Shown here piece by piece: positions 25,101-58,211 of a stretch of DNA of 64,000 bases. The first letter of the stretch is position 1, and each line of letters opens with the position of its first letter. The notes below the pieces were generated by a model, which saw only the letters and a list, made by a program, of their open reading frames with translations, ran no database searches and was not told where the DNA came from. The stretch is from Anas platyrhynchos. Taxonomy: Eukaryota > Chordata > Aves > Anseriformes > Anatidae. Location: NCBI RefSeq assembly GCF_047663525.1, contig NC_092607.1, positions 3,071,001 to 3,135,000 on the forward strand. The letters run 5' to 3'. The position numbers were made by a program, and so were the translations under genes.

Positions 25101-28100
25101 GATGGCTCTGTGTGCCCCTTGCCACATCCTGCCTGGCCTGGGTGGCAGTGGCACAGCACGTGGCAGCACCCCATTTCACCCGTGTCCCACCTCTCCTGTG
25201 GAGCACCGAGGCCGTTGATGAATGGAAGCGCTGTTCTGAGCTGTCCCCTCCTGGGAAGCCGTTGTTTACCCAATTGCCTGAATTAATTCCTGCTACGTCG
25301 GAGGCCTGTCTCCCTCCTCAAGTTTGTCCATGGCAAACAAACAAAAGGGGAATTGTGTGCAGCCAGCCCGTGGAGAGGCCGGACCAGCCCTCTTCCAGGG
25401 GCAGTGGCAGTGGGGTTGCTCCTTTGCCCCGAGCTGGGCATGAGCCATGGGGGGACAGGAGGGTGTGGGGCGCAGGCAGGACCCCTGCTGCAGCTGGGAG
25501 AAATGCTGCTGCCTAGGCATTGCTTCCACGGGAAACAGGACTTTCTGGGATAAATCCATCTGAAAAGGGGAAGATGACTCATCGGGGAGGTGTTTCTGCC
25601 TGAAACCTCTGTGGGGAAGGGGGTGCTGGACCCTGGAGGGACTGTGTGCCCCAGTGGTGGTGGGTCTCTGATGGAGAGCTGCGTCCAGCCACAGCCATGA
25701 TGGCTGAGTGGGGCCAAGGAGCAACAAGGCACACCGGCAGCATTCCCTAGTTGTCTCTTTTGGTGTCTGGGGACAGAAGAAGCCACCTGCATTTGGTGCC
25801 GGGAGCAGAGGGCTGGGTGAGCAGGCAGCAAGCCACCCCAGGAGCATGGCTCCTGACCTGCTGCTCCTGCTGCCTCCCCAGAGGGCCCCATCGATGTAAA
25901 TATGAGCGAGATCACGATGGAGGACATCCACCAGTTCTTCTCAAAAGACCCTTCCATCAAGCTGGGAGGCCACTGGAAGCCGAGCGACTGCCTGCCTCGC
26001 TGGAAGGTGAGCAGGAGGCTTGGAGTGCCTGGGGGAATGTTACTGGGAACACTGGGATAACCTCTCTGGTGTGCTGCAGGGCAGTGCTGTGAGGATCCCC
26101 GCAACGTGGGATTGCAGCACCGGGAGAAATGCTGAAGCTGAGGGCTGTTAGTGACACGCGAGTCAGCTCTGGGCTTCTACAAGGGCTGCTAAGGGGACAT
26201 TCAATTCACCCCCAACCCTGTTTGGAGAGGGATTTGCTCAGGAGGCGAAGTGGCACCACTGGGGACCCGTGCCCAGATTTATACCATTTATACAGGGAGA
26301 GCAGCACTGACACCGTGCCAGCAGCCTCCTCCCCGGGTCGGGGTCTGTATGCTGCAGGAGCTGCTTTTGTGGTGCAGAGCTGTCCCCTTTCATCCCCAGG
26401 TGGCGATCCTGATCCCATTCCGCAATCGTTATGAGCATCTTCCAGTCCTTTTCAGGCACCTTATTCCAATGCTGCAGCGTCAACGTTTACAGTTTGCGTT
26501 TTATGTCGTGGAACAAGTAAGTGGTTGCGGTGTTGTGCCAGGCGGGCGGTGCTGGGGGCTGGCATCGCAGCCTGCCAGGACAGCAGTGCGTTGTGTCCCG
26601 AGGGGTTTGCCTGACAGATCGCATCCCTGCAACTTTTGAAGGCCTGGGGTTAATGTTGCAATGTTCAAATTGTCCCATCCTGCTGAAAAGCAGCACAGCT
26701 GGGAGGCATGCCCAAAAATGACTTTTTTAATCTAAAAAAAAATCCAGTAGACTTTTATTTAAAACAACAAACAAACAACACATGTTGAAAGAGATTTTTA
26801 ACAAACCAAACTGCAGCTTTGAAGCAGGTATTTGCAGTTGAAATAATGCTGCGTTACAGCTGTGTGTATTTGTAGTAGCTTCAGGGAGCATCCCCTGGGC
26901 CTGATGGGGTGGATGTGTGTGCTTCTTGTCTGTGCAGTGCCTGGAAGACTTCCATCAGTGTAGGACACAAGACTGTAATTTGATGTGTATGCTAACCTGT
27001 CACTTAAGCTATCTGGTTTCATCCGCCCTGTAAACATGCCTCCATATTTAGGCACCCTTACTCTTCTGGGCAGCAGCCAGTAGAGATTGATCAAAATTGT
27101 TTTGCTTTTTTTTCAAGTATCTGGCTAATGATACTTTTTGCAGCTTTATTTTTGCTACTGCAGTCTTGGTATTCAGGTTTGGGTTAATCTCACTGGTCTG
27201 TCTGTTCCAACACATCATTTCCCTTTGAGCAGTGAATCTGGAGCTGACTGCTCTGCAGTTCCCTGAATAGGGCCGAGAGTGCACACACAGCGTGAACTTG
27301 TGTGGGGCTTCCCTTGAAGGTGCTCTCTCTCCTAGGCTGGTAACCAACCCTTTAACCGTGCCATGCTCTTCAACGTTGGCTTTCGGGAAGCAATGAAGGA
27401 CCTGGACTGGGACTGTCTGATCTTCCACGATGTGGACCACATACCAGAAAATGACCGCAACTATTACGGGTGCGGCCAGATGCCGAGACACTTTGCAGCC
27501 AAGCTGGACAAGTACATGTATCTGTAAGCACTGCTCTTCCTCTTCACTACAGTAATAAATAAGAAGCAAGTGTTAGATTTTCTTCTGAAAGGCAGAAGCC
27601 CAAAGTAAAACAGAAAGAGGATTGGAGGAGAGCATCCTCACAGATCAGTGTCCCCCGCTGCAAGCAGGAAAGCCACAGTTGGTGCTGCGGTCCCCACACT
27701 GACCCTTTTCTCCCCCTCAGGCTCCCCTACAACGAGTTCTTTGGCGGGGTGAGTGGCCTGACTGTGGAGCAGTTCCAGAAGATCAATGGTTTTCCCAATG
27801 CTTTCTGGGGCTGGGGTGGTGAAGATGACGACCTCTGGAACAGGTACAGGCTCAGCGCGTGTCCCTGCGACGGGCAGGGCTCCCTGTGGCGTGGTGCTGC
27901 TGCCAGCTCCGGGGAGCACAGAAATCCCAGGAACTCAAGGAATTTCTGAGCACAGTGCCATGGTCCTGAGTGCTGGCAGCAGCTTCAGCCCCGCACCGAT
28001 GTTTTGTCCCTTGCTGTGCCATGGTCACCTGGGCTGGGCAGAGCCAGCCTGGCTGGAGGTGTCCTGGTCTGGGAGGGTGGGTGATGGTGGCAAATAGATC

Positions 28101-30403
28101 CTCAGCTGAACCTCAGGTACCAGAGGTGCTGAGCATGGTGCAGCTTAGGCTGAGGTGGGGAGTTTGCATAGCTTATCTGCTCAGAAGAAAGGCAAAGTTA
28201 CGTTAGGGGCCACAAATGCCCTAACTGTGTGCGCTGGCAGCATGACAAGGGCAGCTGTTGATTTTACTTCTGATTTTTCTCCCCTTCCCAACGCAGAGTG
28301 CAGTACGCAGGCTATTCGGTGACTCGGCCGGAAGGAGACACGGGGAAATACAAATCAATTCCCCACCATCATCGGGGAGAAGTGCAGTTCCTAGGAAGGC
28401 AAGTGATGTTTTTTTTTTATTATTTTATTTTTTATTTTTAAAGGTCCCAGAGGCCTTCACAGTCTGTGTCACATACAAGGTTCCCTGCAACTGCTAGAAG
28501 GCAATAACAGCCACAAGTTGCAGAGGAAACAAACTGTGGGGAGAAGAGGGAGGCAGAGCACTGCTGGGGCTCCAGGATGTTCAATGCCTAAGGCGAGAGC
28601 TCCTCACAGTGTGCTTGCAGCTCCTGGGGTGCCACCCAAAAGATGGGGCTCTCAGACATCCATGAGCCAGAGTTGTTCCTGAGAGACAATGGCTCAAGGA
28701 AGGGCTGCTGCTGCTGCTGGGGGACATGGGTGGAATTTGAGTCTTCTGCAAACTATGCAACAGGAAACCAGAGAAATACCTTTTTGCAATCAACGGCAGG
28801 AATTAAGACTTGTAGGGCACAAGCTGCTGCACGGTGCAAGCTCTGTTCTGGAAAGGGGCTGCTGGCTGCTGCTGGCAGAAGGAGGGGACAGCAAGGGGGC
28901 TTTGTTCTGCAAAGTACTATTTGAACTCGCTGCAGATTCAGAGGAGAAATGAACTTGCATGCTGATTGTCAGTCATCTACAGAGGATTCGTTCTGGGGGG
29001 TTTCCGTTTGAGGTTATATATAATCATTAGCCCTAGTTTTCATTTCTGTGTCAGACAGAATGCAGCAAGCGAGAGATGCTTCTCTCATTTCACTCTTAAA
29101 AAGAGGAATCAAGGAAGTCAATTTTGGCTTTAAAAAGCCATATTTAGTCAAGTCCTTGAAGCGTGTAAGGACTGAGTGCAGTGGGATGGAGCACTTGTTC
29201 CTGGAGCTTCCTTGACCTCCCCCTGGCTCCAGCAGGGAGCCCTGGTTTGATCTGGGCACAAGCTGTGGGGTCAGGGGCAGCCCCTGCCCAGGAGCCAGGC
29301 TGACAGCCATGTGGTTTCGCTCCATTTTACCTCCTACAAGAGCCCCCCTTCTGACTCTCCTCTCTGCTGCGGCTTTTCCCACCCAAGCAGGGAACCTGAC
29401 AGTTTTCCCAGGGAAAGTATTTATCAAGATGCTGTTTTCTGCCACTGTTCTGATGTTGCAACCCCTTTGAAGTCAGCATGGGCTCTTCTGCCTTTGGTCT
29501 GACCCGCAGCCTTCCTTTTCCTCCTGGCACGTCCACTTCCTGCTGCTTTTCCTGCACTCAGGTCCCAGCCTCAGCTTCTCCTTGCCCTGTGCAATGGTGC
29601 TGGGTGCTGCCAGGTGCTGGTGCTGGGTACTGCAGGGCAGGGAGTCAGTGTCCAGTCCTGCCATGATGCTCCTGTTTTTTTCTCCCCATCCCCCTGCCGC
29701 CCCCTCCCACCTTCGGCCTTAAATTTCATCACGCTGCCCTTAAATTTGCTTGAGGCTGCTCTTGTGCACTAGCTGCAGTTTTCTTCCCCAAAACACAGTT
29801 CTTCTAGGTTTACTTCTTCCTCCTCCATCACTTGCACTAAAACCATTAGTTCTGCTCTTGTGTGGTGTCCTGTTTCCTAAAAATGGAGAGGACCACATCA
29901 CCTATCAGCTGCTTTTCTACGGCATGTTTTGGCTGGCAGGTGCCAGGCAGGAGCCCTCCCTGAGCCCGGGAAGGCTTTGGGCAAGAGCCACTGCTTGTCT
30001 GAGAGCTCAGCGCCTGCTTGGTGCCCAGGGAGTGCAGGTAGCATCTAAATCTGTATCAGGTGGTAGAATTTTTTGTCATTTTGTGACACTGGGGCTACTC
30101 ACCTGCCAGGAACGTACAAAAGGTGACAGTCCTCTTTACTGAAGACTCAGAAATTCAGTTTTGCTGATGGGGTTGGCTGTTTTAAGAGTATGGGCTCTGC
30201 AAGGCTCCGTGTGATATAACAGTGCCTCCATGGGCCTCTGGTTCTCCCCGAACAGGTACGCCTTGCTGAGGAAGTCGAAAGAAAGGCAAGCCCTGGATGG
30301 CCTCAATAACTTGAACTACTTTCCTAACGTCACGTATGACGCCTTGTATAAGAACATCACTGTTAACCTGACACCGGAGCTGGCTCTGGTGACCGAATAT
30401 TAA
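996..30403 (+). CDS. B4GALT5: B4GALT5: beta-1,4-galactosyltransferase 5 (lactosylceramide synthase), nine-exon coding region
   Basis: Join of 996-1122, 21587-21721, 24949-25062, 25882-26006, 26400-26516, 27336-27523, 27721-27843, 28297-28398 and 30256-30403. It gives 1179 nt, or 392 residues plus stop, with phase kept at every junction. Known family role: a type II Golgi membrane enzyme that transfers galactose from UDP-Gal to glucosylceramide to make lactosylceramide. Visible features are a signal anchor at about residues 18-40, the FRNR motif (174-177), the metal-binding DVD motif (238-240), and the acceptor-site WGWGGEDDD motif (298-306). N-glycosylation sequons are at 81, 85, 96, 115, 132, 368, 377 and 381. 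The C-terminal half (for example [21 protein letters not shown]) fits B4GALT5 and not its paralogue B4GALT6. The start is the first ATG giving the anchor, with G at -3. The mammalian protein is 388 residues; the extra four lie in the N-terminal cytoplasmic tail. Confidence 0.96.
8336..9150 (-). mobile_element. 5'-truncated CR1 LINE (reverse transcriptase 3' part and 3' end)
   Basis: The element is inserted antisense in B4GALT5 intron 1. Its 3' end is at the left, where the + strand reads ATCATAGAATCATAGAAT, the complement of the CR1 terminal ATTCTATG units. The - strand protein at 8426-8959 is open for 177 codons. It contains CR1 ORF2 signatures: [60 protein letters not shown] and [10 protein letters not shown]. 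Farther upstream a second frame reads [19 protein letters not shown] and [10 protein letters not shown] small deletion near 8950 shifts the frame between the two parts. The copy is dead, but its low divergence suggests fairly recent insertion. Confidence 0.92.
12755..12781 (+). repeat. GGA/GAT trinucleotide run
   Basis: A short run of GGA units followed by GAT units in B4GALT5 intron 1, just after a poly(A) stretch of 12 bases. Simple sequence with no coding meaning seen. Confidence 0.7.
21587..21721 (+). CDS. B4GALT5: B4GALT5 coding exon 2 (residues 43-87)
   Basis: Encodes the start of the lumenal stem: [20 protein letters not shown] through NSSVNDS. Sequons lie at Asn81 and Asn85. It is preceded by a T-rich polypyrimidine tract and CTTGCAG. 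The donor TCAG|GTATTT is weaker than the others in this gene. Confidence 0.95.
21722..24948 (+). other. B4GALT5: B4GALT5 intron 2
   Basis: A 3.2-kb intron with donor GTATTT and an acceptor preceded by 14 T and several C residues. I recognise no gene or interspersed repeat inside it. Overlapping open frames on both strands at 22.7-23.3 kb reflect GC-rich sequence. Confidence 0.8.
24949..25062 (+). CDS. B4GALT5: B4GALT5 coding exon 3 (residues 88-125)
   Basis: Encodes more of the stem region, including [20 protein letters not shown] and [11 protein letters not shown], with sequons at Asn96 and Asn115. Cys118 is the conserved stem-proximal cysteine of the B4GALT5/6 group. Acceptor CTCCCCAG, donor A|GTGAGT. 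Confidence 0.95.
25882..26006 (+). CDS. B4GALT5: B4GALT5 coding exon 4 (residues 126-167)
   Basis: Encodes the entry to the catalytic domain: [15 protein letters not shown], then [18 protein letters not shown] and PRWK, with a sequon at Asn132. It ends in phase 0 after Lys167 with donor AAG|GTGAGC. Confidence 0.95.
26400..26516 (+). CDS. B4GALT5: B4GALT5 coding exon 5 (residues 168-206)
   Basis: Encodes [20 protein letters not shown] through FYVVEQ. FRNR (174-177) is a UDP-galactose contact motif shared by beta-4-galactosyltransferases. Phase 0 at both ends; donor CAA|GTAAGT. Confidence 0.96.
27336..27523 (+). CDS. B4GALT5: B4GALT5 coding exon 6 (residues 207-268)
   Basis: Encodes [16 protein letters not shown], then [20 protein letters not shown] and [14 protein letters not shown]. 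The DVD motif at 238-240 coordinates Mn2+ with the diphosphate of UDP-Gal. Mammalian proteins usually read VGTQPFNRAM where this one reads [10 protein letters not shown]. Confidence 0.96.
27721..27843 (+). CDS. B4GALT5: B4GALT5 coding exon 7 (residues 269-309)
   Basis: Encodes [18 protein letters not shown], then [15 protein letters not shown]. The WGWGGEDDD string (298-306) is the family's acceptor-binding and catalytic motif and is fully conserved. Acceptor CCCCCTCAG, donor AG|GTACAG. Confidence 0.96.
28297..28398 (+). CDS. B4GALT5: B4GALT5 coding exon 8 (residues 310-343), followed by a GC donor
   Basis: Encodes [20 protein letters not shown] and [13 protein letters not shown]. The His-rich IPHHHRGEV segment carries the third metal ligand region of the family. 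The frame requires the exon to end at AG (28397-28398) so that Arg344 is completed by the G of exon 9. The intron therefore begins GCAAGT and not GT. Confidence 0.95.
28399..30255 (+). other. B4GALT5: B4GALT5 intron 8, GC-AG type
   Basis: The intron begins GCAAGT and ends CCCCGAACAG. AG|GCAAGT is the classic strong context that accompanies GC donors spliced by the major spliceosome. The nearest GT, at 28403, would add four bases and break the reading frame. A T-rich run follows at about 28408-28440. No gene or repeat is recognised inside. Confidence 0.85.
30256..30403 (+). CDS. B4GALT5: B4GALT5 coding exon 9 (residues 344-392) and stop
   Basis: Encodes [18 protein letters not shown], then [20 protein letters not shown] and PELALVTEY, followed by TAA at 30401-30403. 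Three C-terminal sequons (Asn368, 377, 381) are present. This tail separates the gene from B4GALT6, which differs here. Confidence 0.96.
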
Positions 30404-33298: not shown

Positions 33299-33320
33299 AA
33301 ATACATATTCAAGAACAAAG

Positions 33321-36300
33321 AGTGCAGCGGTTGCTTTTTCTCTTGGAGCTTGGGGGTGTTCTGGGTGCAGATGGGGCTGTTCGAGTGACCTCTGTATGGG
33401 AGGGGAAATCCACAAGCCCCAAGGGTGAGCAGGGAGGGAGGATGGGGGTCCCTGAGCAGGGACCACAGCAGCCAGGAGCGAGGTCTGTGTGCTGACAGCT
33501 GGCCAGGAGCTGCACCATGGAGTCCCCAGTATCGGTGTTGGGCTGGAGCTGCTGCTTGGCAGGGGGAGCAGGAACCCCATGGGTGTACTGCTTTGTGCGT
33601 GCTACAGGCCTGTCTTCCAAGCATCTGATCCAGTGTGGTGCTGGCAGAGAGGCCGGCAGCCTGAGGGGAGATGAGTTTCGGAAGTTACTTGGCTGTGGAG
33701 AAAGCTGGCAGAGAACGTTTGTAATTAGATTTTTGATCAGGCCAGGCAAGCTTCCTTACAGCAGCTTTAAAATATCTGCCTCCTGCTCCACAGTGCACAG
33801 GCACGCTAGAATAAATAGCTGGCAGCCTCGGTTTGTCCCAGGCCTTGCCTTTATTTAGCTCTCCATCTTCTGGGAAGCTGCCTCCCACCCGTGGCGCTGG
33901 GCTGGAGCCTGCAGGGTGGCAGGCTGCTTCCTGCTCTGCTGCCCACCTGGGGCTGGGGGGATCCGGGAGTGCGCACAGACCTGGCTTGACCACACCAAGA
34001 GGGGAGTTTCTGCCTTGCTAACCCCCAGAATTGTTGTTGGCCCATGCCAGCGCCTGCTGGGCTACCAGAGGGCACCAGCCAGGAAAGCCACTGGAGAAAA
34101 TGCCTTGGCATCTGGGGTTGGCCTTATATAGGAAAACCCAAATCCGTAGGGAAAGCCTGGGGGCAATCCTGGCTGCCCTCTTGGAAGGAGCTTGGGTGCC
34201 TGGCAGTGCTGTGGCTCCAGCAGCAGCGCTACAGACCTGGCTGTGTGTCACCGGGATCTCTTGTGGGGTGCTCGTGGGGCACTGCAGCACTTGGTGTCCC
34301 CAGGGGGCACAGCCAGCCCTTGGCATGGGATTCTGTCTGACTGCAGAAAGCAGAGCTGGAAGCAAAACCTCATTTTGTATGGTCTGAGGAGCCAAGCACA
34401 GCGAGGGACTGGCTCACAACAGCTCTGGCACAGCCACCCCCGCAGAGCCCCGGCTTTCCTGGAGCTGCCCACGCCATGTGGGAGAGCTTCCCCTGCTCCC
34501 ACTGAGTGGCTCAGCCTTCTGTGCTGCACAGTCCTCCCGCTTTGCTGCAGAGAGCTAGAAAAACCCACACAACTACAGCAGAGTGTTTCCTCCCACGTCC
34601 CCTCTCTGCTTCTGGCACAGCCAACCTGCCTGGGACAGCCCCGTCCCACATCCTGAGTCATGGACGCATGCTGGGAGCGCTTCTGGGCTGTGTCCCTGCC
34701 GGCCCCGAGCAGCCCAGAATCCTGGCCCCATAAGGATGACCTCCAGGAGAGCCGCCGGGATGGCCAGGCAGGAATTGGTGCTGTTTTCTACCCTCCTCCG
34801 CTGTGTTTCTCCAGCCTAGGCAGGTTTGGAGCTGGGTGAAGCCCTTGCAGAGACCCAGCATGGGCTGGAGCTTGTCCCCAAAGATCAGTGCTGGGCTAAT
34901 TGTGTTCTGCATCTAGTCACTGCCCTTCAGAGCACCCACACAAGAAATGAGGCTCTTTTGGAACATCTGATAAATACCACGGAAACCTTAAGGATGCTTT
35001 TTTCCCCAAAGACCTGTGCAGTGTCATCTTTTCCTGCCAGAGGCAGCAGAGCCAGCTGGCGACTGTGTCCACGTAACTGAATACAGGGCAAGGACAACGA
35101 GGTGGCCTCTCTTGCCAGGTAGAAGGGTATGAGCTACTCCCAGCTGTATCTTAATGGGGTTAATTAGTGCCGACAGCATCAGCCCCAGCAGGACAGGCTT
35201 GGCTGATTTTGCCCCTGCTGCAGGGTTTCTCCATCCCCAACCTGCAGAGGTAGTGCCCCGGCCATGGGGTCCCTAGCCCTGTGGTTTGTCACCTGCACTG
35301 CCCGGGTGTGCTCCCAGGGGAAGGACAGGGTGTCCCCAGGTGTTTGTTCTTCCCTCGGGCGAGCCACATGGTGATATTGACTGTTATTTAAGGGCTGCTC
35401 TTGGTAGTCAAGAGGTGGGAGGAGAAGCACACAGGAGTGGTGGAGTGAGGGCAGGTTGCTAGGGCTTTTGTGGCACTGGTGGAGGGGTGAGGAAATTCTC
35501 CGGCCCTGGACTCTGCCCTTCTCGGCAGCAGCTTCATGGCTTAAAGGAGTCAGGCCGGGCTTGATAACATTTATCTGGTGTTTCGGGCTATACTGTTTAT
35601 AAAGCAATAAGCAGGGCCATGGTGGCTGGTCCACGTCATTGCTCTCGGGCTCTACAGCACCACAAAGGCTTTGCATACCGGCCTAATTGCTTTTGGATAA
35701 GAAAAACACAAAAAGGGCAAAACCAATAACTCATGCATATTACCTGGGTGAAGGAAAAGCAAACATCTCCCAGCCGTGGCAGGCTCGGGCCGTTTCTTTA
35801 CCCTGTGGACACCGCGGTGCCACCGGTGTGGGGACAACGGACAGCGCTGTGCTGGGTGAGGCAGGGAGGTTGTTTTGCAGGGTGGTGGCTGGGCCAAGCA
35901 GGCAGGACTGAACAGCCAGTGAGAGCTAAGGAGAGCCTTGAAGTACAGTGAGAAACCAGCTCCTAATGCACTGTCTCGAGCTGTGGGGACAGCAGGCAGC
36001 CTTGAGGAAGGCAGTTCCCGGCAGCCACGAAGGCGGCGTCACACGCTCAGGAATCTCTTGCACAACCGCCCACGTCAGCCCGCCTGCGTTCTCGGCTGTG
36101 CGGCTGTTCCCAGGCAGGCAGGCAGGCGTGGAGCTGCTCTCCGCTGCCATAAAGCCGTGAGTCACCGTGCAAGAAGTGTCAAGTGTGGGGCTGCTTGCCA
36201 GCGAGGTGGGGCTGGTCCTGCCCCCGAGGTGTCAGGGACAGGCAATGCCTCCCCGGTGCACCTAAGCAAAAGCGACGGCTCAGCTGCAGCTTGCGTTCAC

Positions 36301-38280
36301 CTGGGACAAAGGACAGCCTAGGGACCAGGGATGGTGGGGGATAATGGAACCCCCCTCCTGCTGCCCAGGGTCACCCCCAGGCGCCGAGGCTCCTGCCTGC
36401 CCCATGTCTCATCTCCCCTTGATTGCATTATAGCAGCTAATCTCGTTAGTGGGGTGATGGCCTGGGATCTCTCATGGGCTTGTGTGTGCTGGGGTCTTTG
36501 TTATCAGTCACAGCATCTTCAGCCCATGGCTGAGACCTAATCCCTTCGCCTGAGCTGAGATCTTCATTTGACAAAGGAAATTCATTCATAATTTAGAGCT
36601 TCTTCTGTAGCTGGAAACTTTTAATGGGCGACTGAGCTGCCTGGAGGTGCCACAGCCCCCTGCAGCTAACAGCAGGACTGAGGGGTGGCACAGGCTGGTT
36701 TACACAGGGCTTATTTCCATTGTGATTAGAGCTCATTTAGAGGAGGGTCAAATTAACCAGAGTCAGGGCTCACAGCAGCTGAAGGGGTCAGTAACTGTGC
36801 CTTCCACCAGCCGGGGGGACCCCATAGCTCCCGGGGGGGCTGGTGGCTCCCTAAATGCAAATCAGCTTTTTTGCCTGAGTTCCTGCCAAGCTGCTCTCTC
36901 TGCTTTGCTTATTTCCAACAGAAACAATCGCTTTGCTCTGCAGCTGCAGCTGTTCCTGGGGTGTCTATATCTGCTGCCCCGGGTTTTCTTCTTGGAGGGG
37001 CCCTGCTCACCCCAGGGTGGGCTCCTGCTTGTGCCCGGAGGCTGCAGCCTGGTCCCCAGGCCGGTCCCCAGGGCCCGGGAACCCCGGGCAGCTCCGGCGG
37101 AGAGCGGTGCGAAAGCCCCCCCTGGTGGCAGGCAACGGCTGTCCCCGGCTGGAAGCTGTGATGTGGAGAACATAAAAATAAAAATAGAAATAAAAATAAA
37201 AAGACCAAATTGCTCAGGGGACACTGGTCTGGGAAAAGCTATATCCAGTTCCAGAAAAGGGAGGGAGAAATTCCCAAATTTTCGGAGAAGTTAAAAAATG
37301 CCAGTGAAAGCTACTTGTGTCTCAAGGTGCCCAGGGATGCTGAGTGTCTGGTGGGCAAATAGCTGTCGAGTTTTCTTCCTTAGCATGAGAGCCTGGCCTT
37401 GCAGGCGCTTGAAGATGCTCCCAGACATCCCCTTGGTGTTCCTCTGAGACCTCTGGGGAGTTATTCCCAGGCTTGCAGCTGCCGCCTGCTACTGAGAAGA
37501 AATCATAGCGACTGCTTCTCGGCTGCTTAATTGCTTTCACATGCAGGGTGCCTGTGATGGAAATGCATGGTAGGGATCTCCCTCTTGCTGCCCCTCCACT
37601 GAGCAAAACTGAGCCTGTTGTGGATTTCCTTGTCCCATGACTTAAACCAGGGAAAGTTCTGAGCTGTAGAGAAACATGTGTTTGCAGACTCTGATGTGAT
37701 GTTTCATGTTCGTGCTATTTTACCCTTCTGTTTAATCCTTTTCTCTATTAATATTTATCAACATAACATTTTTCTTCTTTTAAACAAAGTCGAAGTTTTG
37801 CTTTTAAGGAAAAAAACATTTTTCAAAGCTTGGAAACCTTTCAGGTCCCCCTTTCCTCCTCCTCCCCTGCTTGTTTTGGCCCTAGCTGCAGTCTATTTTT
37901 CATGAAAAATATTGCTCTATAGAATCACCAGATAAACTTGCCTAGCTCTGATGCTGTCAGCTTAGGGGAAGGCTGGTGTCACTGTGTTTCTCTGTAGCCT
38001 GTAACCACTGGAGAGGTAGTTGTTTTTGCATGTTTGGTTTCTTTTGACAAGACCTGAAGTTTTTATGGCAGGTCTTTTGAGACCACAGGACCCCACTGTG
38101 TTTCTCTAGTACCACTGTGCCATAGATGTTCTGGGAACAGGCAAGCAGGCAAGAAATACCCCTTGCTGCTTCAGGGTCTGCTATCGGAAGACAAGGAAGA
38201 ACTGCAAAGCCTCTGAGATCTGAACTGGGAGTGCTAGTGAGAGCATAAAAACATACACCTGTGTTTAAAAAACTAATAAA
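33321..38280. other. Intergenic DNA between B4GALT5 and the PTGIS remnant
   Basis: I see no supported gene here. There is an AATAAA at 33810-33815 with no gene attached. A GC-rich patch at about 36950-37160 is followed by an A-rich (AAATA)n-like run at 37172-37202. The open frame across the GC patch (36647-37294, 215 codons) has no recognisable domain. The patch could be the decayed promoter or first exon region of the lost PTGIS gene, but I cannot align it. Confidence 0.6.
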
Positions 38281-38284
38281 ATTG

Positions 38285-38745
38285 GCTGATGGTCAGGCTC
38301 AGAGGGTTGTGGTAAACGGGGCTGCATCAGGCTGGCCGCCAATCACTAGCGGGGCTCCCCAGGGCGTCAGCCTGGTGCAGCCTCACCTCAAGCATGGTGT
38401 GCAGGGTTGGGTGCCATGGTGTAAAAAGGACATAAAGCTAGTGGAGGGTGCCCCAAGGAGGGTTATGAAGATGGGGAAGGGTCTGGAGGGGAAGATGCAT
38501 GAGGAGCGACTGAGGGCCCTGGGTTTGTTCAGCCCCAAGCAGAGCAGGCCAAGGGGAGGCCTCATGGTGACCTGCAGCTCCCTCACAAGGGGAGCAGAGG
38601 GGCAGGCACTGAGCTCTGCTCTCTGGGGACAGTGACAGGACCCGAGGGGACGGCATGGAGATGGGACAGGGGAGGGTCAGGCTTGTGGTTAGGGACAAGT
38701 TCTCTAGCTGGAGTCTTGGGGTGGTCTGACACTGTTTGGACAAAC
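38285..38745 (+). mobile_element. Old CR1 LINE fragment with internal deletion
   Basis: The + strand reads QRVVVNGAASGW and TSGAPQG (CR1 reverse transcriptase), then jumps directly to LVQPHLKHGVQGW and KKDIKLVEGAPRRVMKMGKG. After that come [20 protein letters not shown] and, in DNA, GTGACAGGACCCGAGGGGAC. In intact CR1 copies well over 100 residues separate TSGVPQG from VRPHLEYC, so a large internal deletion is present. The copy is much more diverged than the one in B4GALT5 intron 1, and its 3' terminal ATTCTATG units are not seen. Confidence 0.8.
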
Positions 38746-38746
38746 T

Positions 38747-38769
38747 GGGGGAGGGAGGGAGGGAGGGAG
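38747..38769 (+). repeat. GGGA microsatellite
   Basis: About five GGGA units directly following the CR1 fragment. A short polymorphism-prone run. Confidence 0.75.
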
Positions 38770-39309
38770 CGGGGAGCTGCGTCTTGGCAGCTGTGTGGGC
38801 TCTGTGCGACAGACCGGCTGTGCAGGATGAGGTTGGCAGCCAGCTTGGGACAACTTGGGGGCAGCTGGGTGTTTAGAAAAAGAGGTGAGTGTTTCTGCAA
38901 GTCCCTTGAGTGTATCTGAAGAGCCTCTTCCCTTGAGGGAAGTTCGCAAGGAAGAAAGTGTCCCTTGGAAAACCCAGGTGTCACAAAGACCTAATCTACA
39001 TGTCCCTGCGGTGTTCCTGAACCCCATAAGAGCTGGTGGCCAGGGCTCCTGCCCGCCTCCTGGGAGCACTTTGTCAGACCAGGTGCAGATTAGGATGCTG
39101 TGAATTTTTAACTTGATGCTGGAAGCCTTTCAAGTACTGTCTCCTCCTGAGACATTGCAGTTCATGTTTTTTGCAAGCCTACAGCAGCATTGCAAAGCTT
39201 GACGGTGGTTTATGTTGGCAGATTCCTGCTGCCTTCAAGTATCCTTCTTATGCAAGTTAGATGTGCATCAGTTCTTTGGGTTTTTCATGTTCTTATTTGT
39301 TAAACTTAG

Positions 39310-39410
39310 GTTAATGTTTGGGGAAACTCACACTAGAGCAGTCTGTGGGTATAAATCTCCTTTGAATGAATCCTCAGTGCCAATTTTTTTCAAACTAGAT
39401 ATTGTCTGAG
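39310..39410 (+). pseudogene. Candidate decayed PTGIS exon (DPH...LDF...IF...DV region)
   Basis: After AAACTTAG the frame reads FGETHTRAV, then SPLNESSVPIFFKLDIV and a stop at 39407-39409. With two single-codon gaps this aligns to the PTGIS segment running from LDPHSYDAV through RLDFHAYAIF to the ERIFDV end. Identities are few (His, Ala-Val, Leu, Ile-Phe, Asp), with several conservative changes. Position and order fit, but on its own this match is weak. Confidence 0.35.
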
Positions 39411-39867
39411 AGAGGTTTTTAGTTAATATAAACCAGAGAAAATTTATGATGACAAAAGATTGTCTTTTCCCCAACACTTCAAGCAATCTGTTGAAATGTT
39501 TGTTTCCCATGGCTAAAGTCAGGTCAAAAACTGGGATTTTGTTCTTTGCTCAGTGGATTCCAACAGTCCTGCTCTGGCAGGCTGGGAAGGTCCCTCGGCA
39601 GCTGCCTGCGCCAGCTTCAAATTGTTTGGGGAGAAGCATGAAGGCAGACTTCAAACAACATGCAGCACTGAGTGGTGGTAGAGCCCTTCTGACATTCAGT
39701 CTGGTTTGTCATTTGTTTGGCTTTGCTTCTTTGTTTGATTGATTGACTTTTCCTTCTTGAGGAAATATTTGTTGCAAAGTGAGGTTCTGGATACTTCACT
39801 TCAGATGAATCAAAAACTGCAGAGCTCTCAGGGCAGTGCTCTACTTCAGATCAACAGCTTCCCACAG

Positions 39868-39950
39868 TTTACTGAGATGCTTGCTGATATGTGCATCTTA
39901 GGCTGGCTGTGAAAACTGCAAAGCCCAGGCAAGAACACCTTCATGGTCCA
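39868..39950 (+). pseudogene. Weak candidate decayed PTGIS exon (LTEAMY region)
   Basis: CTTCCCACAG precedes TTTACTGAGATG, reading FTEMLADMCILG, which can be laid against LTEAMYTNLHAVLLG. A stop follows, and a shifted frame gives a Trp-containing stretch resembling the next residues. Collinear with the better exons but possibly coincidence. Confidence 0.22.
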
Positions 39951-40472
39951 CAGCGCCCATCAGCAAATGGCGTGACCTTGTGAGCTGAAGGCTGCTTAAC
40001 ATTTTCTCTCCCCTGACACACAGTGCTTAAATGTACCGATGTTTTCTGGTTTTGTGGTAACAGAAAAGCACTGCTCAGTGGTGTGGCAGGAGGGATCCCC
40101 ACTGGCTTCCAAAGCAGAGGCCTCCACCTCAGAGCAGCCATCTCCTTGCAGTCTGGCATCCTGGCAGAGTTTGCTCACCAACCTGTGAGAGGCTGCTGAG
40201 GCATCTGCACAGGCAGTGCTTCTGCCTCCCGCTCGTGACCAGTGCAGCCCCATCATGCGGGATGCCGGGGTTCCCCACTCATGGCCAGGACCTGGCCCCA
40301 TGCTGGCAGCAGCTGCCAGGGAGGAGGTCCAAGCCCTGCCCGGGGTCTTCCCAGGGCCAGCTCCTGGCTGGGTGCAGCAGGCATCAGGGAGAGGAGAGCA
40401 CCCAGCGCCCCCAGACCTGTACACGCTGCAGCCTGGGTGTTGCTCTTGCTCTTTCTGCTTTGATTTCTTCAG

Positions 40473-40560
40473 CTGCAAAGCTGAAGTTTTTTACTTCCTC
40501 ATGGAGTATATACAAGCCTGGTGATAACCTTATGTTATGCATGAAGGGCCTACCAAAAAT
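40473..40560 (+). pseudogene. Candidate decayed PTGIS exon (WLESYLLHLEE region)
   Basis: A strong acceptor (CTTTGATTTCTTCAG) precedes a frame reading CKAEVFYFLMEYIQAW followed by two stops. It resembles the PTGIS stretch SKWLESYLLHLEEMG that lies just before the GNMGPAAFW exon. A following stretch in a shifted frame (LCMKGLPK) may match the EMQARAL part. Order and spacing fit; similarity is low. Confidence 0.3.
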
Positions 40561-41672
40561 CCACCATGATGTGATGAAGGCTTCTCCCACTGATTTGGAG
40601 ATCAGCGGAGGAGGGAGAGGGCTGTAGCCTGCAGGGTCAGGAGGAAGAGAGCATGTAACTCTTTTGAATTGTCTGCATTTGTTATCCACCTTTGTAATAA
40701 CCCTGTAGTAACCTCCCTGCTGGGGAGAATCTGCTTCAGGACAGTCACTGGAGGAGATTGATTCGGCATCGAGTTGACTATCACTTTGTTCTTTTTTTGG
40801 CCTGACCTCAGCAAATGCTTCTTCCCAGGTGACATTGTGCTGTGTGGGGACTGACTCTCATCCCAGGACAAACTTGCTCAGTTCTTTCACATCTCCAGTG
40901 GTTTGAGTGTAATCTACAGAAAGAAGAGATACCTTTTCTTTCTAATGCATGACCAAGAATGTTTGCTTGAAGCATGAATAATTAAAGGCCCACATACATC
41001 TATATAAGCCTATATTTTAACTAAAAAAGCATCCCCCTCCTTGAAAATTTAGGCAGCTAAGGTGGCATTGTGCTTACCAAAAGAGGATGAATTATTTATA
41101 TGATATGCTCTGCTATTTAAATTACTTGGGTTTAATGTGCTGCACAAGCACACCGTATTGATAACAATGCTATTCTGCTTCCACTTAATCATCACAATTT
41201 CATTTCTTTATTAACAAGAACAGAAATACCCAGAGCTGGCTGATCAGATGCTGGTGCTGCTGTTGGACTTCATGCCACAACCCATGTTCATGCTTTTACA
41301 CTGCAATAATTGTTTTTTTTTTGCTCTGAAGAGGCTGATCTGTGGACTGCAGCAGTGCTTGGCACTGCAACCACAACCAGCAGTTTCTAAAGGTCACAGG
41401 GCATGGTGCTACTGATCCAAGCTCCTAAAAATCAAGTACTGCTTGTGCTCAGGGATCTTGGTATAGATGGTCCCAAATATTCAAACAGCCTGCCTCAAAT
41501 TTGCAATTAATGAACTCCACGGCCACCCTGCTGCTTGTGCACCAGACCGGTGGCATTTGTCATGCCAGCAGTGTTGATGCTGATTTGTGTTTTGGCATTT
41601 GCGCTGTGTGGGGATTCTGCTGGTTCCAACTTGTCTTATTAGCTCTGATTCCTTTGGGGTGTTTATTTTTAG

Positions 41673-41743
41673 GGTAATCCCTGCAGCGTTTTGGCTTCTC
41701 CTCTTTCTCCAAAAGCGTCCTGCAGCTGTGGCAGCAGCTCAAG
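41673..41743 (+). pseudogene. PTGIS: PTGIS exon remnant (I-helix, [10 protein letters not shown]) with 5-nt deletion
   Basis: Bounded by TTTATTTTTAG on the left and AAG|GTGAGT on the right. It reads GGT AAT (Gly-Asn), then, in a different frame, [20 protein letters not shown] and Gln. The mammalian exon segment reads [20 protein letters not shown] and so on to the same phase-1 donor. The counterpart would be 76 nt; this one is 71 nt, the difference being five bases lost between Asn and Pro. The splice signals survive but the frame is broken. This is the best-preserved piece of the lost gene. Confidence 0.75.
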
Positions 41744-42194
41744 GTGAGTCAGGAAGAGCAGCTCGAAATAGGCAGGAGAAGCTGCAAGGCAGAGACAGGG
41801 ATGTGGCCAGGAGAAGCCAGGTGGTTTGGCTGTTCTGGGCTGGGGCAGCTCTTAGTGCCCTTCAGTTCCTGGTAACAGTCTTCTGAGCCTTTATTTACTA
41901 TAATCGGAATTACCAGAAATGAAACCTTTTGGACAGTGTAGGAGATTGTTCAAGTTAGTAGTTGTGCTATGGCAGGGTCAAGGGTTACTCTGTGCTGAGC
42001 CACCTCCTGGAAGAAATCACAGCCCCCAAGATAGGGCACAGTCAGGAGTAAGGTTTTGGATAGAGTTGGGTAGATGCAGACTTTGGGGCTTTGACTTGTT
42101 TCTTTTCCTTCTCATTTGGAATTGGAATAGGAAGTTACCCAAACCAGTAAAGGTTGTGAGCCAATAACATAAAAAGGCTATTTCAGACAAAGTC

Positions 42195-42365
42195 ACTGTT
42201 GGTTTTTTTTTGTTGTTTTGTTTGTTTTTTAAATTTATTTTTTATTTATTTAATTTTTCCCCCCTTTGGTGATAATTTTAATTAATTTATTATTATTTTT
42301 AAAAATCTATTTAATTTTCTGTTTTAGCTAACAATTATTTATTTATTGGTATATTTGCAATTCAA
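42195..42365. repeat. AT-rich low-complexity tract
   Basis: T-rich then TTTA/TTAA-rich sequence lying between two PTGIS-like exon remnants, in what would be an intron. No gene content. Confidence 0.8.
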
Positions 42366-43634
42366 ATCATTTTCTGAACTACAAAGTCAGACTTTTTCCT
42401 AACCTGCCTGCAGCAATGTGGGGACCCTTGTCAATGTTTCTTCACAACAAAAAGCACCCAGCTGATGCTGGGAGTCATTTGAAATCTGCAGTTTTCACCT
42501 GAAGGCCTTAGGATTAAAAATAGCAGCTCTGTTTTCCTTGACACACATCACAGGACACAACTCTCTAGTGGTCACCCTCAGAATCGCCACCAGTACAAAA
42601 GGGGAGGAGATGGTTCCCAGATGATCGGGCAGCACTGGGCTCCCCATAGGGTGGTTGGGACCCTTGCTCCCACCCATGCTGTCCCGGGCTGAGCACTGTG
42701 GCTGAGCAAGGGCTATGAATGGGACTGCTCGGGCTGCAGCTTGCACTGCACCATTGGGGCGTGAAGCAGCAGCCCCAGAGGGCAGCAGAGGCTCCCTGAA
42801 GAGGAATATCTCCTAACAGCCATCCTAATTCTCCTGTCCTGCTATTTTTGTCTGATTCCCAGCAGATAAGGAAAGCAAGCCCTTAGTCCTCTACAGGAGC
42901 CTTTTTTGGAACTGAAAACTGTCATCCTCATTCCTACTCTTTTCCATTTCCATGAGTGAATGGAACCCCTTCTCTCCATCTCTCCTTAGAGGCTGTCTCT
43001 ACATCTCTGGTCACTCCTGTTGCTGCCCTCTGGGCTCTTGCCAGCTGAGCCCCATCATTCTTGATGACCAGTGCCCAAAATTGGATGCAGGATAACAGCT
43101 GAGCCTTTAGCAACAGGAGAGGGAAGGTTTACTTCATGTGTCTTACATACAACTCTGCTGTTTATAAATTCCAGCAAGATAGCTGAAAAAAAAAAATAAT
43201 AAAGGCAAATACAATGTCCTGGCAACCCTTGAGATTTGGGTACCATGGAGATGAGGACCTTGTAAGTACACAGACAGAGGCGTGGATGAAATGCAGGCTT
43301 TGACCAGTCAGACAAAGGGAAGTGAGCCTGGGTGAGCAGCACAAGGAGCACACTGCTGCTGGTCTGCATGCAAGCCAGTGAACACATTGGGAGCTATGTG
43401 GTCATCTTCTCTGGGGACATGCCAGGTGTGGTTGGTGTTGCTGGTGACTCCCAGCCCATGGGGGCTCCAAGCAACCCACAAACTGAGGGGGTGTGAGCCT
43501 TCCTGCTGCTTAGCTTGGCTTCCAGTGCCTGCAGCTGTAGGCATGCCTACTCAGGCTGTTCTCCATTGCTTTCCACCTCTGGAGGAAAAAGCTTTCTGTG
43601 AAAGGATGAGCTGTGTTTTTTGTCTCCCCTTCAG

Positions 43635-43785
43635 CCCAAGCACCAGGCAAGAGGCCAGTGACTTCTGCAGAGTTGGGCTCTGTCGAGGAGACAGCAGGAG
43701 GCGAGCGGAGCATCCTGGTGGTGGCTGGAATCCCTGTCACCATAGCGACTGGAGGAATCCTTAAATATAGATGTGGTTCTTCCCC
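43635..43785 (+). pseudogene. PTGIS: PTGIS exon remnant (ExxR-to-beta-sheet region)
   Basis: Preceded by TTGTCTCCCCTTCAG. The frame stays open and reads KRPVTSAELGSVEETAGG, then ERSILVVAGIPV and GGILKYRCG. With small gaps it aligns to PTGIS from [20 protein letters not shown] through ITREVVVDLAMPM to NLRRGD. The ExxR motif of P450s (ESLR in PTGIS) is replaced by GSVE, so the conserved Glu-Arg pair that supports the heme pocket is gone. Similarity is modest, and the case rests on order and phase as well as residues. Confidence 0.5.
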
Positions 43786-44889
43786 ATACCCTTGCTGTCC
43801 TTTCATCTGTAACACAGCAACAAACGGGCTTGGCTTCCTTCTGCATGCAACCTGATGGAGCCCCAAAGGCCAGAAATGTGCCGGCTTTATGGTTTTATAA
43901 GCCCTGCTACGTGCAGTGTTTGAGGCAGAGACCCACTGATAGTGGGTTGGGTCCTGCGCCATTCACAGCTCTGTGGGTGGGCTCCAAGTACTGGTTGAGC
44001 TCGGTGAAAATCCTCAGATGGGTTGGACTGGAATAAAGAATCCACTAGCAAGGCTGGAAATCACTTAATTCCTGCAGCTCCTGGAGGAGATGCCCCATTT
44101 TTGCAGCAAAGGCTAGGGATGAAGTGAGTATCCTGGTTGTTGTGTGGCCCCAGCCGGGCTCCCCATGCCGGCACGCTGTGCAGGAAGGTCATGCTCATGC
44201 TTTCCAGGCTGTTCCTGCAGGGCAGAGATGTCTCTTACCAGGGCTGCCAGCCACTGCTGCCCCTGGTGTTGAGGTCTGTGACTTCCTTCTGTGGCTGTGA
44301 ACCAGAGCTCCTGACTTTCCCAGCATGAAATGGGTTCTCTCCTGACAATGCTGTGCTGATGGGAAATGTTTTAGGGGCTTTGTGGTCTTTCACAGGCTGT
44401 AAGTATACACCCGAAGAGGTTTCTGGGAGGAGACGGCACTGTTTTGAGCAGTAAGGAGGGGCTGAGATCTAGCTCTTGGAAGCTGAAGCTAGTCCAAATG
44501 AGACCAGCACTAAATGTCCATGTTAACAGCCTCGTTAACCACTTGATTGGTGAACTGAGAACACTCATGTTATCATGAAGTCCAAGTTATTACAGGGGAT
44601 AGAAAGGACATCAGCTGCTCCCTGCTGCCAGCCTGGGAGCTGCAGCAACTCTGCATGTGCCCTGGGTCGCACTCTGCTGCCGGGAGAGCTCTGCCTGCTC
44701 TGTGCTGGGACACATCCCCATTGTTTTTACTGGTTTCCCTTTTTTTTTTTTTTTTTTCCCTTTGTAAATGCTGTGTAGAGGACTGTTACCTCTGGGATCT
44801 TTCTTCCTGTGACACCCTGCTGCTGTCCCATCTCCCTGAGCACCAGCAGAGTGCAAAGGGTCAATGAATGTGTGCTGTGTGCCACGCAG

Positions 44890-45160
44890 GAGCTGCTTGC
44901 ACCAGCACCGGACCAAAAGGCTGGGCCAGGACATTGCTGCCATCAGGAATTTAAACCCAACAGATTCCTTGGTGTGAATGGTGCAGGGAAAGCAGATCTC
45001 TAGGCAAGAGGAGCGTCTCAGTACCGCAGCATGCCGTGGGAAGCAGGAGCGAGCGTGCGTGCTGCAGAGGCACAGGCAGGCAGGAGCACCCTGCAGTGTG
45101 CAGTGAGCCTGCGGAGCGATGCCCTCATCCTGCTGCAATTTGTGTGCACCCAGCCAAGGG
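44890..45160 (+). pseudogene. PTGIS: PTGIS exon remnant with ruined heme-binding loop and premature stop
   Basis: Preceded by GCCACGCAG. The frame reads GPGHCCHQEF, then FKPNRFLGVNGAGKADL and a TAG at 45001-45003. This parallels [20 protein letters not shown] to EKKDF in PTGIS, with one codon missing before Phe. Still in the same frame after the stop, it reads QYRSMPWEAGASVRAAEA against NYNMPWGAGHNHCLGRSYA. MPW and AG survive, but the His-Asn and heme-ligand Cys positions are lost in this frame. A later stretch AGRSTLQCAVS and LQFV may match GRSYAVNS and KQFV with inserted codons. Confidence 0.62.
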
Positions 45161-48100
45161 GCATCTCCTGTGCACCCACCCGAACCTCCTTTGCCCTCCT
45201 CCACAGTGCTGAACCCCCTTAGGCTGGGCAAAATCACTGTCTATAAAACTGACCGAGTGCCTTTGGTGTCTCCAGTGTGTGATTACACACCAAAACTACC
45301 TGTTAAGGTTGTTCATTCCTCGGCGTTCTGCACAGGTTCTTTTAGAAATTCACACTTCTTAATTAAATATGGGGTTTTATGCCATAGATTAGGAACCAGA
45401 GTCCCCAAACTACAGGAATTATTTACTGGTGCAATGTAGTGGGAAAGCTCCCAGGTTCCTGACTTTGCTGTAGCATAGTTTCATTCTGTTAGCTAAACTG
45501 TTGTAATTTCATTGTTAGCTTATTATATTAGAAGGGTATTCGGACCACAAAACCAAGTGACTGATTGATCTGATTTGCTGAATTTAAGGTTTTCCCATAA
45601 AATCCTAGTTCTTCTCCTTTGTTCCTCTGTGAAGAAGTGCAATCTGGATCAAGTTTCTTTTTTTCTTTTCTTTTTATTTTTTTTTTCCCTCTTAATAACA
45701 GTCCTGTCTCTGTTAATATTGGATACTTTTCTCTTGATTCAGTCACTGAAAATGGCTAATTTTCCTGAGATTGTCTTTGATTCCTACTTAGAGCCCAATA
45801 ATCAGCATGGAAAATTCCAACCTGAGCAGTGTTAATTGTGACAAAACCTGAGTACAAAAGAACTCTGGTGCATCAGGCATCAGATGCACCTGTTAAATGC
45901 AGCCGTAGGAGGCTGCTCTTGTAAACCAGCTGTTTTCTGTTCTCAGATTTATTTTCCTCCTGTTGACCTCTTCTGATTTGGAGCAGAAAGACCTGAGGTT
46001 ACAAATCCTAGGTTTTAACAACGGAAGATTTGTCTTTGGGACGTTACAGCCAGAAAAGGATATCATGGCTAAACATGAATTGAAAACTCAGTAAAACATC
46101 ACGGACTTGCCTTTCATCTTCTGCTTCTCTGTAAGGTTGTTCACAATTGCTACAGGGCTGGCTTCAAACCCAACAAGTGCACTGATCAGTCCGTTGGGGT
46201 GGAGAACTGGCAGCAGAAAATGGCACTCAGAATGCCAGTGCTGTACGCCTGCTGTGAAGCTGTGAACCTGCAGCTTCAGTGCTGCATGGCACTGGGTGCC
46301 TGGGGGCCCCAGGATCCTTTCTAGGTACTGAACATCGGGTGTGCCAAAGTGAGCTGCATCACAGAGACACATTTCAGGGGAAAAAGTAGCTGTCAGGTAG
46401 GTTTGCACACTCACCCAGGCAGAGGGGTGATGTTCCTTGATGGCAATGTCACAAGGGGGGACTGAGGACAAGATGCTCTGGGGTGACTCAGCATCACCAC
46501 TATGTGTGCGAATATTGCTGCAATATTTACCTGCTGGAAAAAATATCCTGTTAGACTTAGAGCTCCCAGCCCATGCAGTGCTGACCCAGGGCACCTGCAC
46601 ATCTCTGGGCTGCAGCGTTCCTGCTGGCACCTTGCTCTTTTGGGGAGCTCCTTCAGGGTCTGGAAGGGCTGCGTTTAAACATGGAAACTGTGAGCACCAT
46701 GGCACAAAGCAGGCCAACAGATTTGCTTGTATCTACAAAGTCAGTTCCTCTGGCTGGATAAAAAATGTGCTTTTGTCCATTATTAATGCTGGAGCACCAC
46801 GTTTCCCAGATCAAGGAAAAAGCTGGGAGACTCCACCTCAGACCACACTGCACAGACTTGTAAAACTCTGTATTGAAGTTCCTGGGATGGTTCCCTAGAT
46901 GTTGCTGCTTGTTTGTGCTTGTTCCTACCCTAATTATTTTTTTTCCCATAAGGAACACTTGTTTTAGCTGTTTTCTTACAAAATTTAACTGATCTGTCTT
47001 GGTTTACTAAATTAAAATCCAGGAAGATTGATGCTTTAAGAACAGACAGCAAGGGCTGCTATTCACAGTGCTGATTCTGACTGCAGCAAGAACTCTGGAG
47101 CACACCAAAAAATGCAGCACTCCCTCTGGGCACACACAGATGCAAGTGGCAGGCTTGGTAAGTGACCCCAGGAGCAGCGTCCCCAGTGTTACCTGCTCAG
47201 TGTCTGGAACTGTCAGGACATATTGTCTCTGTGCAACCTTACTTGGGCTCTCAGCATGGCTGCAGTGGGACACAAGTCCCAGGGGTACCTTCACATGGCT
47301 TTTTAGGGGAGTTTTGGTGGCCATAGGGGACCAGAGGCAGGAGGGAGCTGCCAGCAGCCAGTGCTGGGGCAGCAGGAGAGCCAAGCTATCTGCAAGCCAT
47401 TGTTACGCAAGTTTTAAGCTAATTTAGTTTTTATTACTGAGTACAGTACTTGAAAACCGTGCTTTTTATGAGGCATCTTTATTTGAATCCCTTGTCTGCA
47501 GCATTCCTGGGGGCTATTAGCTTCTCTAAGTGGGACAGCAGCTGCTGGCAGCCTGGGCGTTTCCTCTTGGAGGCAGCACGAACCCTGGGGACTTGCTCAG
47601 CTCCTTGAGCTGCTGCTATCCATGGCTGTTGGTACACAGCAGCAAAGCACAGGGCAGGGAAGGACTATGCAGCCACATGTGGAACCCCAAAAACCAGTGC
47701 ACTTTTAACCAGAGACAGGTCTGGACAAGGTGAGCAAAGATTGCACACACACACAGTGACTGGGGAGGAGGTTGTTGTCTGCTGCTGTACAGAGGAATTT
47801 AATTAACCTCTTTTATTGATTTGGACAGAGAACCACCTTCTCATTTCTGGGCAAAGGAGCCCAAGGAAACTGGTGAGAGCATCTCCACCTTCCTGGCATC
47901 CCCCATCACACAGGGTGATACAGAAGGTGAGTGAGGGCTGGAGAAACATCCAGCAAGCACCCATGGGCAATGGCTGCTTGTTCTTCAAACCTGACAGTGG
48001 GTGAGAAGCTTGGGAGTTTGCTGGGAGTTTCTGATTTACTGGGGCATAACGGCTTGAACTCAAGGTCTTTTAAGTTTTGCATTATACTGGCTGGATATTC

Positions 48101-57482: not shown

Positions 57483-58211
<729 letters not shown>

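Follow-up and report, generated by a model that had tools for sequence, protein, structure and literature searches.

The window that we analysed is a stretch of 64,000 nucleotides from the duck Anas platyrhynchos (NC_092607.1, 3,071,001-3,135,000, + strand), and all window coordinates below count from its first letter. Between the genes B4GALT5 and KCNB1 the window holds three collinear + strand segments, here called relics A, B and C, that span 4.4 kb and resemble parts of PTGIS (CYP8A1, prostacyclin synthase). A tblastn search of the window with human PTGIS places relic A at 41680-41748 (residues 290-312, E 2e-5), relic B at 44950-45048 (residues 404-437, E 0.1) and relic C at 45936-46085 (residues 450-499, E 1e-5), and zebrafish PTGIS aligns at the same places with E values of 0.09, 1.0 and 0.018, respectively. 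An earlier reading of the sequence, the original prediction, had put collinear PTGIS-like segments in this slot at 39310..45160. The slot and the strand are borne out by the searches, and relics A and B do lie inside that interval; the interval begins 2.4 kb too early, and relic C was missed.

Do the three matches add up to more than short P450-like resemblances? PTGIS was aligned to 33301-47500 with a custom spliced protein-DNA aligner, and the chained scores were set against those of 200 residue permutations of the query. At cheap jump costs the aligner chained meaningless short matches across the whole slot, so the jump costs were raised and then tested against the permutations. The human chain scores 219.2 on the + strand and 95.9 on the - strand, and the reversed human query scores 73.9 and 75.6. 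The permuted queries average 82.6 (standard deviation 9.8), and the best of them scores 114.5, so that none of the 200 reaches the human score, which stands 13.9 standard deviations above them. Zebrafish PTGIS scores 132.4 on the + strand and 81.7 on the - strand. Even at the highest jump costs the human chain takes in segments at 34067-34198, 34675-35117, 38177-38265 and 42990-43121, which we regard as probable chance matches because their stretches do not beat permuted queries; the permuted queries were equally free to chain such segments. A zebrafish segment at 38360-38396 was set aside, as it lies inside a frame that we take to resemble a CR1 retrotransposon.

Relic A (41673..41748, +) reads (G)VIPAAFWLLLFLQKRPAAVAAAQGE, corresponds to human residues ~288-312, and matches human PTGIS at 17 of 23 residues. 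It is immediately preceded by a T-rich, acceptor-like sequence, tgtttatttttag. Near its end, CAAG/gtgagt at 41743/41744 may be read either as a donor or as coding for Gly-Glu; its interpretation as a donor matching the CYP7A1 exon end was dropped, since one of the CYP7-type exons already ends at FYLLK and the other runs through. Relic B (44947..45048, +) reads EFKPNRFLGVNGAGKADL, an in-frame stop, then ARGASQYRSMPWEAG, and covers human residues 403-437 with 15 of 34 aligned residues identical. The stop is a TAG at 45001..45003 (+), as had been predicted. Splice-like signals at several segments had been predicted as well: relic B begins at catcag/GAA, and relic C, outside the predicted interval, at ttctcag/A. 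The first codon of relic B is also the one at which, in two CYP7-type genes of the same genome that we take to be CYP7B1 and CYP7A1, the last exon starts; those exons begin at ttttcag/GAG and cag/ACA, at the same codon before the motif F/Y-K-x-D/N-R. Up to MPW, relic B is one codon shorter than the human sequence. The frameshift of the original prediction is possible and is not needed, as it enters through an alternative alignment of relic B that uses two compensating shifts.

Relic C (45947..46094, +) would be the last PTGIS exon. It follows the acceptor ctgttttctgttctcag/A, with the boundary at 45946/45947, reads FIFLLLTSSDLEQ...KHELKTQ, ends in TAA at 46092-46094, and agrees with human at 16 of 47 residues, with 48 codons before the stop vs 47 residues in human. 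We note that relic C (45948-46091) is still open and ungapped at only 34% identity to human PTGIS, which may be due either to chance or to a late use of this exon. Non-coding DNA of ~3.2 kb separates A from B, and ~0.9 kb separates B from C. In the ~900 bp between relics B and C, which end at the acceptor at 45946/45947, no donor was identified. As a yardstick for decay we compared the duck's own CYP8B1 with human CYP8B1 in the same alignment columns, where the bird-human identity of this working pair is 16/23 in the columns of A, 20/34 in those of B and 29/44 in those of C. By this comparison of sequences relic C has clearly decayed, relic B somewhat, and relic A not.

The heme loop would be expected to follow relic B. 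Reading on contiguously past MPWEAG gives ASVRAAEAQ, with an Arg at the position of the heme cysteine and 3 of 16 residues matching. A possible displaced remnant of the loop, AGQNHCL (human AGHNHCL), stands at 45223..45243 (+), 174 bp downstream of MPWEAG; it is preceded by cccccttag and followed in its frame by TAA and TGA. It is the only 6-of-7 match to the loop in the six frames of the window, a degree of match reached by 5 of 1500 Markov resamples. Against the stretch that holds it, a query made of residues 435-452 outscores 99 and 100 of 100 permuted versions. These results are suggestive of a displaced heme loop, moved by an insertion or a lineage-specific intron, with chance as the other possibility. 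A DNA search of the genome with 44947-46100, made for an inserted repeat after MPWEAG, returned seven other places, all of them covering the T-rich ~45646-45701 only; very common words are skipped in this search, so an old or common repeat may escape it. The destroyed heme loop of the original prediction is uncertain, with the Arg of the contiguous reading speaking for it and AGQNHCL against it. Under either reading of the loop, the heme-ligand cysteine that a working prostacyclin synthase has is not in frame.

What of the rest of the gene? Residues 1-288 do not rise above chance in 33301-41672, where the permutations doing as well, out of 100 at each of two settings, number 73 and 13 for the human query and 46 and 68 for zebrafish. 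Nor do residues 311-403 in 41744-44946, where the corresponding numbers are 27 and 68 for human and 99 and 75 for zebrafish. The power of these tests was gauged by placing mutated copies in the same DNA, in six pieces for residues 1-288 and two pieces for residues 311-402, the mutations being substitutions without frame shifts or indels. At kept identities of ~45% and ~35% all 40 of 40 trials were detected for each part, and at 25% detection was 39/40 for residues 1-288 and 28/40 for residues 311-402. As simulated exons at 35% were always detected, the exons for residues 1-288 and 311-403 have either been deleted from the slot or diverged far more than relics A, B and C. The PTGIS segments that had been predicted between 39310 and 41672 accordingly find no support. 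In the cheapest-jump chain, LGFSCSYLLNLG at 39276-39311 resembles human LDFSYSFLLRAG; it was rejected as a PTGIS segment, since permuted queries do as well as residues 1-288 taken together. With the TAG at 45001-45003 and these exons undetectable, the locus lacks the open reading frame of ~500 codons of a working prostacyclin synthase.

Following the course proposed in the original prediction, we also ran human PTGIS with tblastn against the genome, an assembly of 42 contigs and 1.26 Gb whose completeness is not stated; the search scores the best candidates only. Two exons of the alpha-A-globin of this genome, once joined, come closest, among the single-domain chains in the best 60 of 86 PDB matches, to 3eok (duck), followed by 1faw (greylag goose) and 1a4f (bar-headed goose), which points to a probable waterfowl; six two-domain fusion chains stand higher by their total score only. 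At E up to 10, human PTGIS gives 16 matches, among which the only full-length open one is CYP8B1, at C2:156609440-156610957 (its frame is open from C2:156609431 onward, with 510 codons from the ATG). Exons of the two CYP7-type loci on C2 account for nine more, and a further three (two on C11 and one on C3) overlap with matches to other P450s. Of the remaining three, relics C and A make up two, and the last is a weak N-terminal hit on C3 (E 1.9). The 13 genome-wide matches of zebrafish PTGIS all lie in P450 genes. Neither the human nor the zebrafish query, with the best candidates scored across the genome, turned up an intact PTGIS copy. As to sensitivity, the PTGIS query finds the CYP7-type exons, and a TBXAS1 query finds probable TBXAS1 exons, with E values that reach 1e-25 and lower.

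The other members of the prostacyclin and thromboxane pathway bear on the meaning of these results. A PTGIR query gives 16 genome matches at E up to 0.01, of which the best three were typed against solved receptors. The one at C5:3387158 is nearest EP2 (286 bits vs 237 for DP1 and 222 for IP), that at C5:3380235 is nearest DP1 (291 bits vs 177 for IP), and that at C35:14638148 is nearest EP4 (457 bits vs 151 for IP). An orthologue of PTGIR, the gene for IP, was not seen among the 16 matches, of which the 13 beyond these three are weaker (94.7 bits or less) and untyped. The TBXAS1 query gives 25 matches; nine lie on C1:59147095-59321860 (~175 kb) at 45-67% identity to human, and stop codons in the matched stretch of three of the nine may be explained by run-on into introns. 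Thromboxane synthase is thus probably present in the duck genome, to judge from these matches.

The neighbours on either side are both on the + strand. The upstream one ends in a last coding exon with stop codon at 30257..30403 (+), whose translation ends ELALVTEY; we presume this exon ending at 30403 to be that of B4GALT5. The 48-residue exon matches no Pfam family, and among PDB chains it has only weak matches to ribosomal eS25 (best E 0.0009). A further exon upstream of it, at ~26397-26522, belongs to a group 7 glycosyltransferase (PF13733, E 2.8e-15). The downstream neighbour is KCNB1, whose first coding exon (57495..58070, +) has a BTB_2 domain and scores 413 bits against solved KCNB1 chains. 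The relics occupy the slot between these genes on the same strand, which is the place and orientation of PTGIS in mammals. The window was also scanned for Rfam families and tRNAs, with no hit. Two CR1-like frames are present in the window, at 38261-38635 (+), inside the slot and upstream of the relics, and at 8426-8959 (-), and we take both to be the 3' part of a CR1 retrotransposon ORF2.

What evolutionary steps would account for this arrangement? The locus shows three relics, a stop and a place that fits synteny; elsewhere in the assembly no PTGIS-like gene was found. We are confident that the duck locus is a unitary pseudogene of PTGIS. The inactivation in place that was originally predicted is supported by the relics, the chain score, the TAG and the searches for a copy elsewhere. 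A scenario is that an ancestral PTGIS with introns stood between B4GALT5 and KCNB1, and that the majority of its exons, those for residues 1-288 and 311-403, would have been lost in this lineage through deletion or extreme divergence. A stop would have been gained in the exon preceding the heme loop and the in-frame loop lost, leaving a remnant that cannot encode a P450 with normal heme binding. If no enzyme is made, prostaglandin H2 (PGH2) would not be converted to prostaglandin I2 (PGI2, prostacyclin) by the usual route, and other prostanoids may restrain thrombocytes and vessel tone through receptors of the EP2, DP1 and EP4 types, which the duck genome encodes. Several observations weigh against the scenario. 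A genome-wide search with zebrafish PTGIS misses the relics at E up to 10, and over the three relic peptides this query fits worse, with a score total of 165, than CYP8B1 does; on relic B alone human CYP8B1 scores 64 vs 61 for human PTGIS. The position of the heme loop is ambiguous. Relic C keeps its frame open over the full length, up to a stop at the human position, and relic A, at 74% identity to human vs 70% for the working CYP8B1 bird-human pair, makes the decay uneven.

One might think that the relics derive from another P450, as a decayed copy of CYP8B1, CYP7A1 or CYP7B1. These families are close, as the totals over the three relics (233 for human PTGIS, 203 for the duck's own CYP8B1, 191 for human CYP8B1, and 157 and 154 for CYP7-type exons of the same genome) make plain. 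Only with the human sequence does PTGIS come out nearer to the relics than CYP8B1 and CYP7 do. The lead of human PTGIS, the highest total, is modest, and our assignment to PTGIS is based on the apparently split layout and on the genomic place and strand, which are those of PTGIS. In the CYP7-type genes the last exon is continuous where relics B and C are split, the final 47 codons being joined to what precedes them without an intron; CYP8B1, for its part, is encoded in one frame. Passages of one report give zebrafish PTGIS 10 exons (PMC3012610), and a gap of ~900 bp before the last exon fits such a multi-exon gene. Nor are the relics a processed copy, as relic B starts at the codon of the CYP7-type last exons and non-coding DNA lies between A and B and between B and C. 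Descent from one of these relatives is therefore improbable, and we give no better prospects to a fast-evolving or shortened gene still expressed at the locus. The clean acceptor of relic C, and its frame open to a stop near the ancestral position, would suit such a gene; the TAG in relic B, the failure to detect residues 1-288 and 311-403 with tests of full power at ~35%, and the lack of any Pfam match for relics A and C argue against it. Errors of assembly are a still poorer account of the missing exons and the stop. Avian GC-rich regions are often misassembled, yet the window has 0 N, both flanking genes are present, the GC content of 40001-46000 is 47-48%, and relics B and C do not show the same kind of weakening. 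Chance similarity to PTGIS has a negligible likelihood. The genome-wide E values are indeed only 0.45 for relic C and 1.06 for relic A, and relic B is absent from those matches; against this stand the order of the three relics, which lie within 4.4 kb in the expected slot, and the distance of the chain score from the permuted queries.

How old is the loss? A recent loss confined to the duck or to waterfowl, with a working PTGIS in other birds, is possible, and we think it doubtful. The 74% identity of relic A and the open relic C suggest that decay is incomplete. In passages of Kawashima and Satta (2014) that list examples with the words 'for instance', CYP27B1 is given as a chicken deletion and CYP8A1 is not named for chicken or zebra finch (PMC4076195). 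One report also states that the NCBI ortholog list includes birds (PMC4964396). Targeted metabolomics of hen liver reports a measurement of 6-keto-prostaglandin F1alpha (6-keto-PGF1alpha), a prostacyclin product (PMC12066428), which counts against a bird-wide loss. On the other side, PMC4964396 also gives chicken PTGIS as unlisted in HomoloGene 68 and restricts PTGIS among the sauropsids of Ensembl 84 to anole and softshell turtle. Lovell et al. (2014), in the passages concerned, report PTGIR as missing in birds and tie this to chicken platelets that do not answer prostacyclin (PMC4290089), and among publications that mention both PTGIS and chickens we saw no title about chicken PTGIS. The main text of PMC4290089 names PTGIS 0 times. 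In titles, abstract openings and passages of the literature we found no description of a PTGIS pseudogene in birds, a search from which supplementary tables, and the 640-gene list of an earlier study cited in PMC4290089, in which PTGIS may be named, were out of reach. On balance we lean to the view that birds dismantled the whole prostacyclin arm, with the synthase dead in place and the receptor gone, and retained thromboxane synthase, since early in bird evolution.

Prostacyclin is the main natural brake on the clumping of clotting cells in mammals, and the balance between thromboxane and prostacyclin is a textbook control of mammalian haemostasis, one that matters for aspirin and for pulmonary hypertension drugs. 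If birds have indeed lost the whole arm, their thrombocytes and vessels would have worked without this balance since early bird evolution, and the uneven relics would be what remains of the synthase. A vertebrate without the enzyme, and apparently without the receptor, would be a natural knockout. The bearing on avian thrombocyte and vessel biology, to which the original prediction pointed, we infer from one genome, and published statements on birds are mixed. The duck loss would complement the report, cited in a passage of PMC4290089, that chicken platelets are unresponsive to prostacyclin. It would also suggest that readings of 6-keto-PGF1alpha in poultry deserve checking. Is any PGI2 made in birds, and by which enzyme?

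How does the duck locus compare with known systems? With PTGIS (CYP8A1) proper, the relics share the slot, the strand, the order, residues of three exons and, it appears, the split layout; the duck locus differs in the stop of relic B, in having most exons undetectable and in a heme loop that is out of frame. The nearest intact relative of PTGIS in the duck genome is CYP8B1, the sterol 12-alpha-hydroxylase, 48% identical to human PTGIS, but it differs from the relics in being a single open frame of 510 codons that scores 586 bits to human CYP8B1 vs 458 to human PTGIS. In its inactivation in place, the gaps between its exons and the neighbours that are kept, duck PTGIS would resemble vertebrate unitary pseudogenes generally. 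Finally, the loss of PTGIR reported for birds by Lovell et al. (2014), in passages of PMC4290089, would be the other half of a lost prostacyclin axis; that loss concerns the receptor, whereas the synthase, in the duck, leaves a relic in place.

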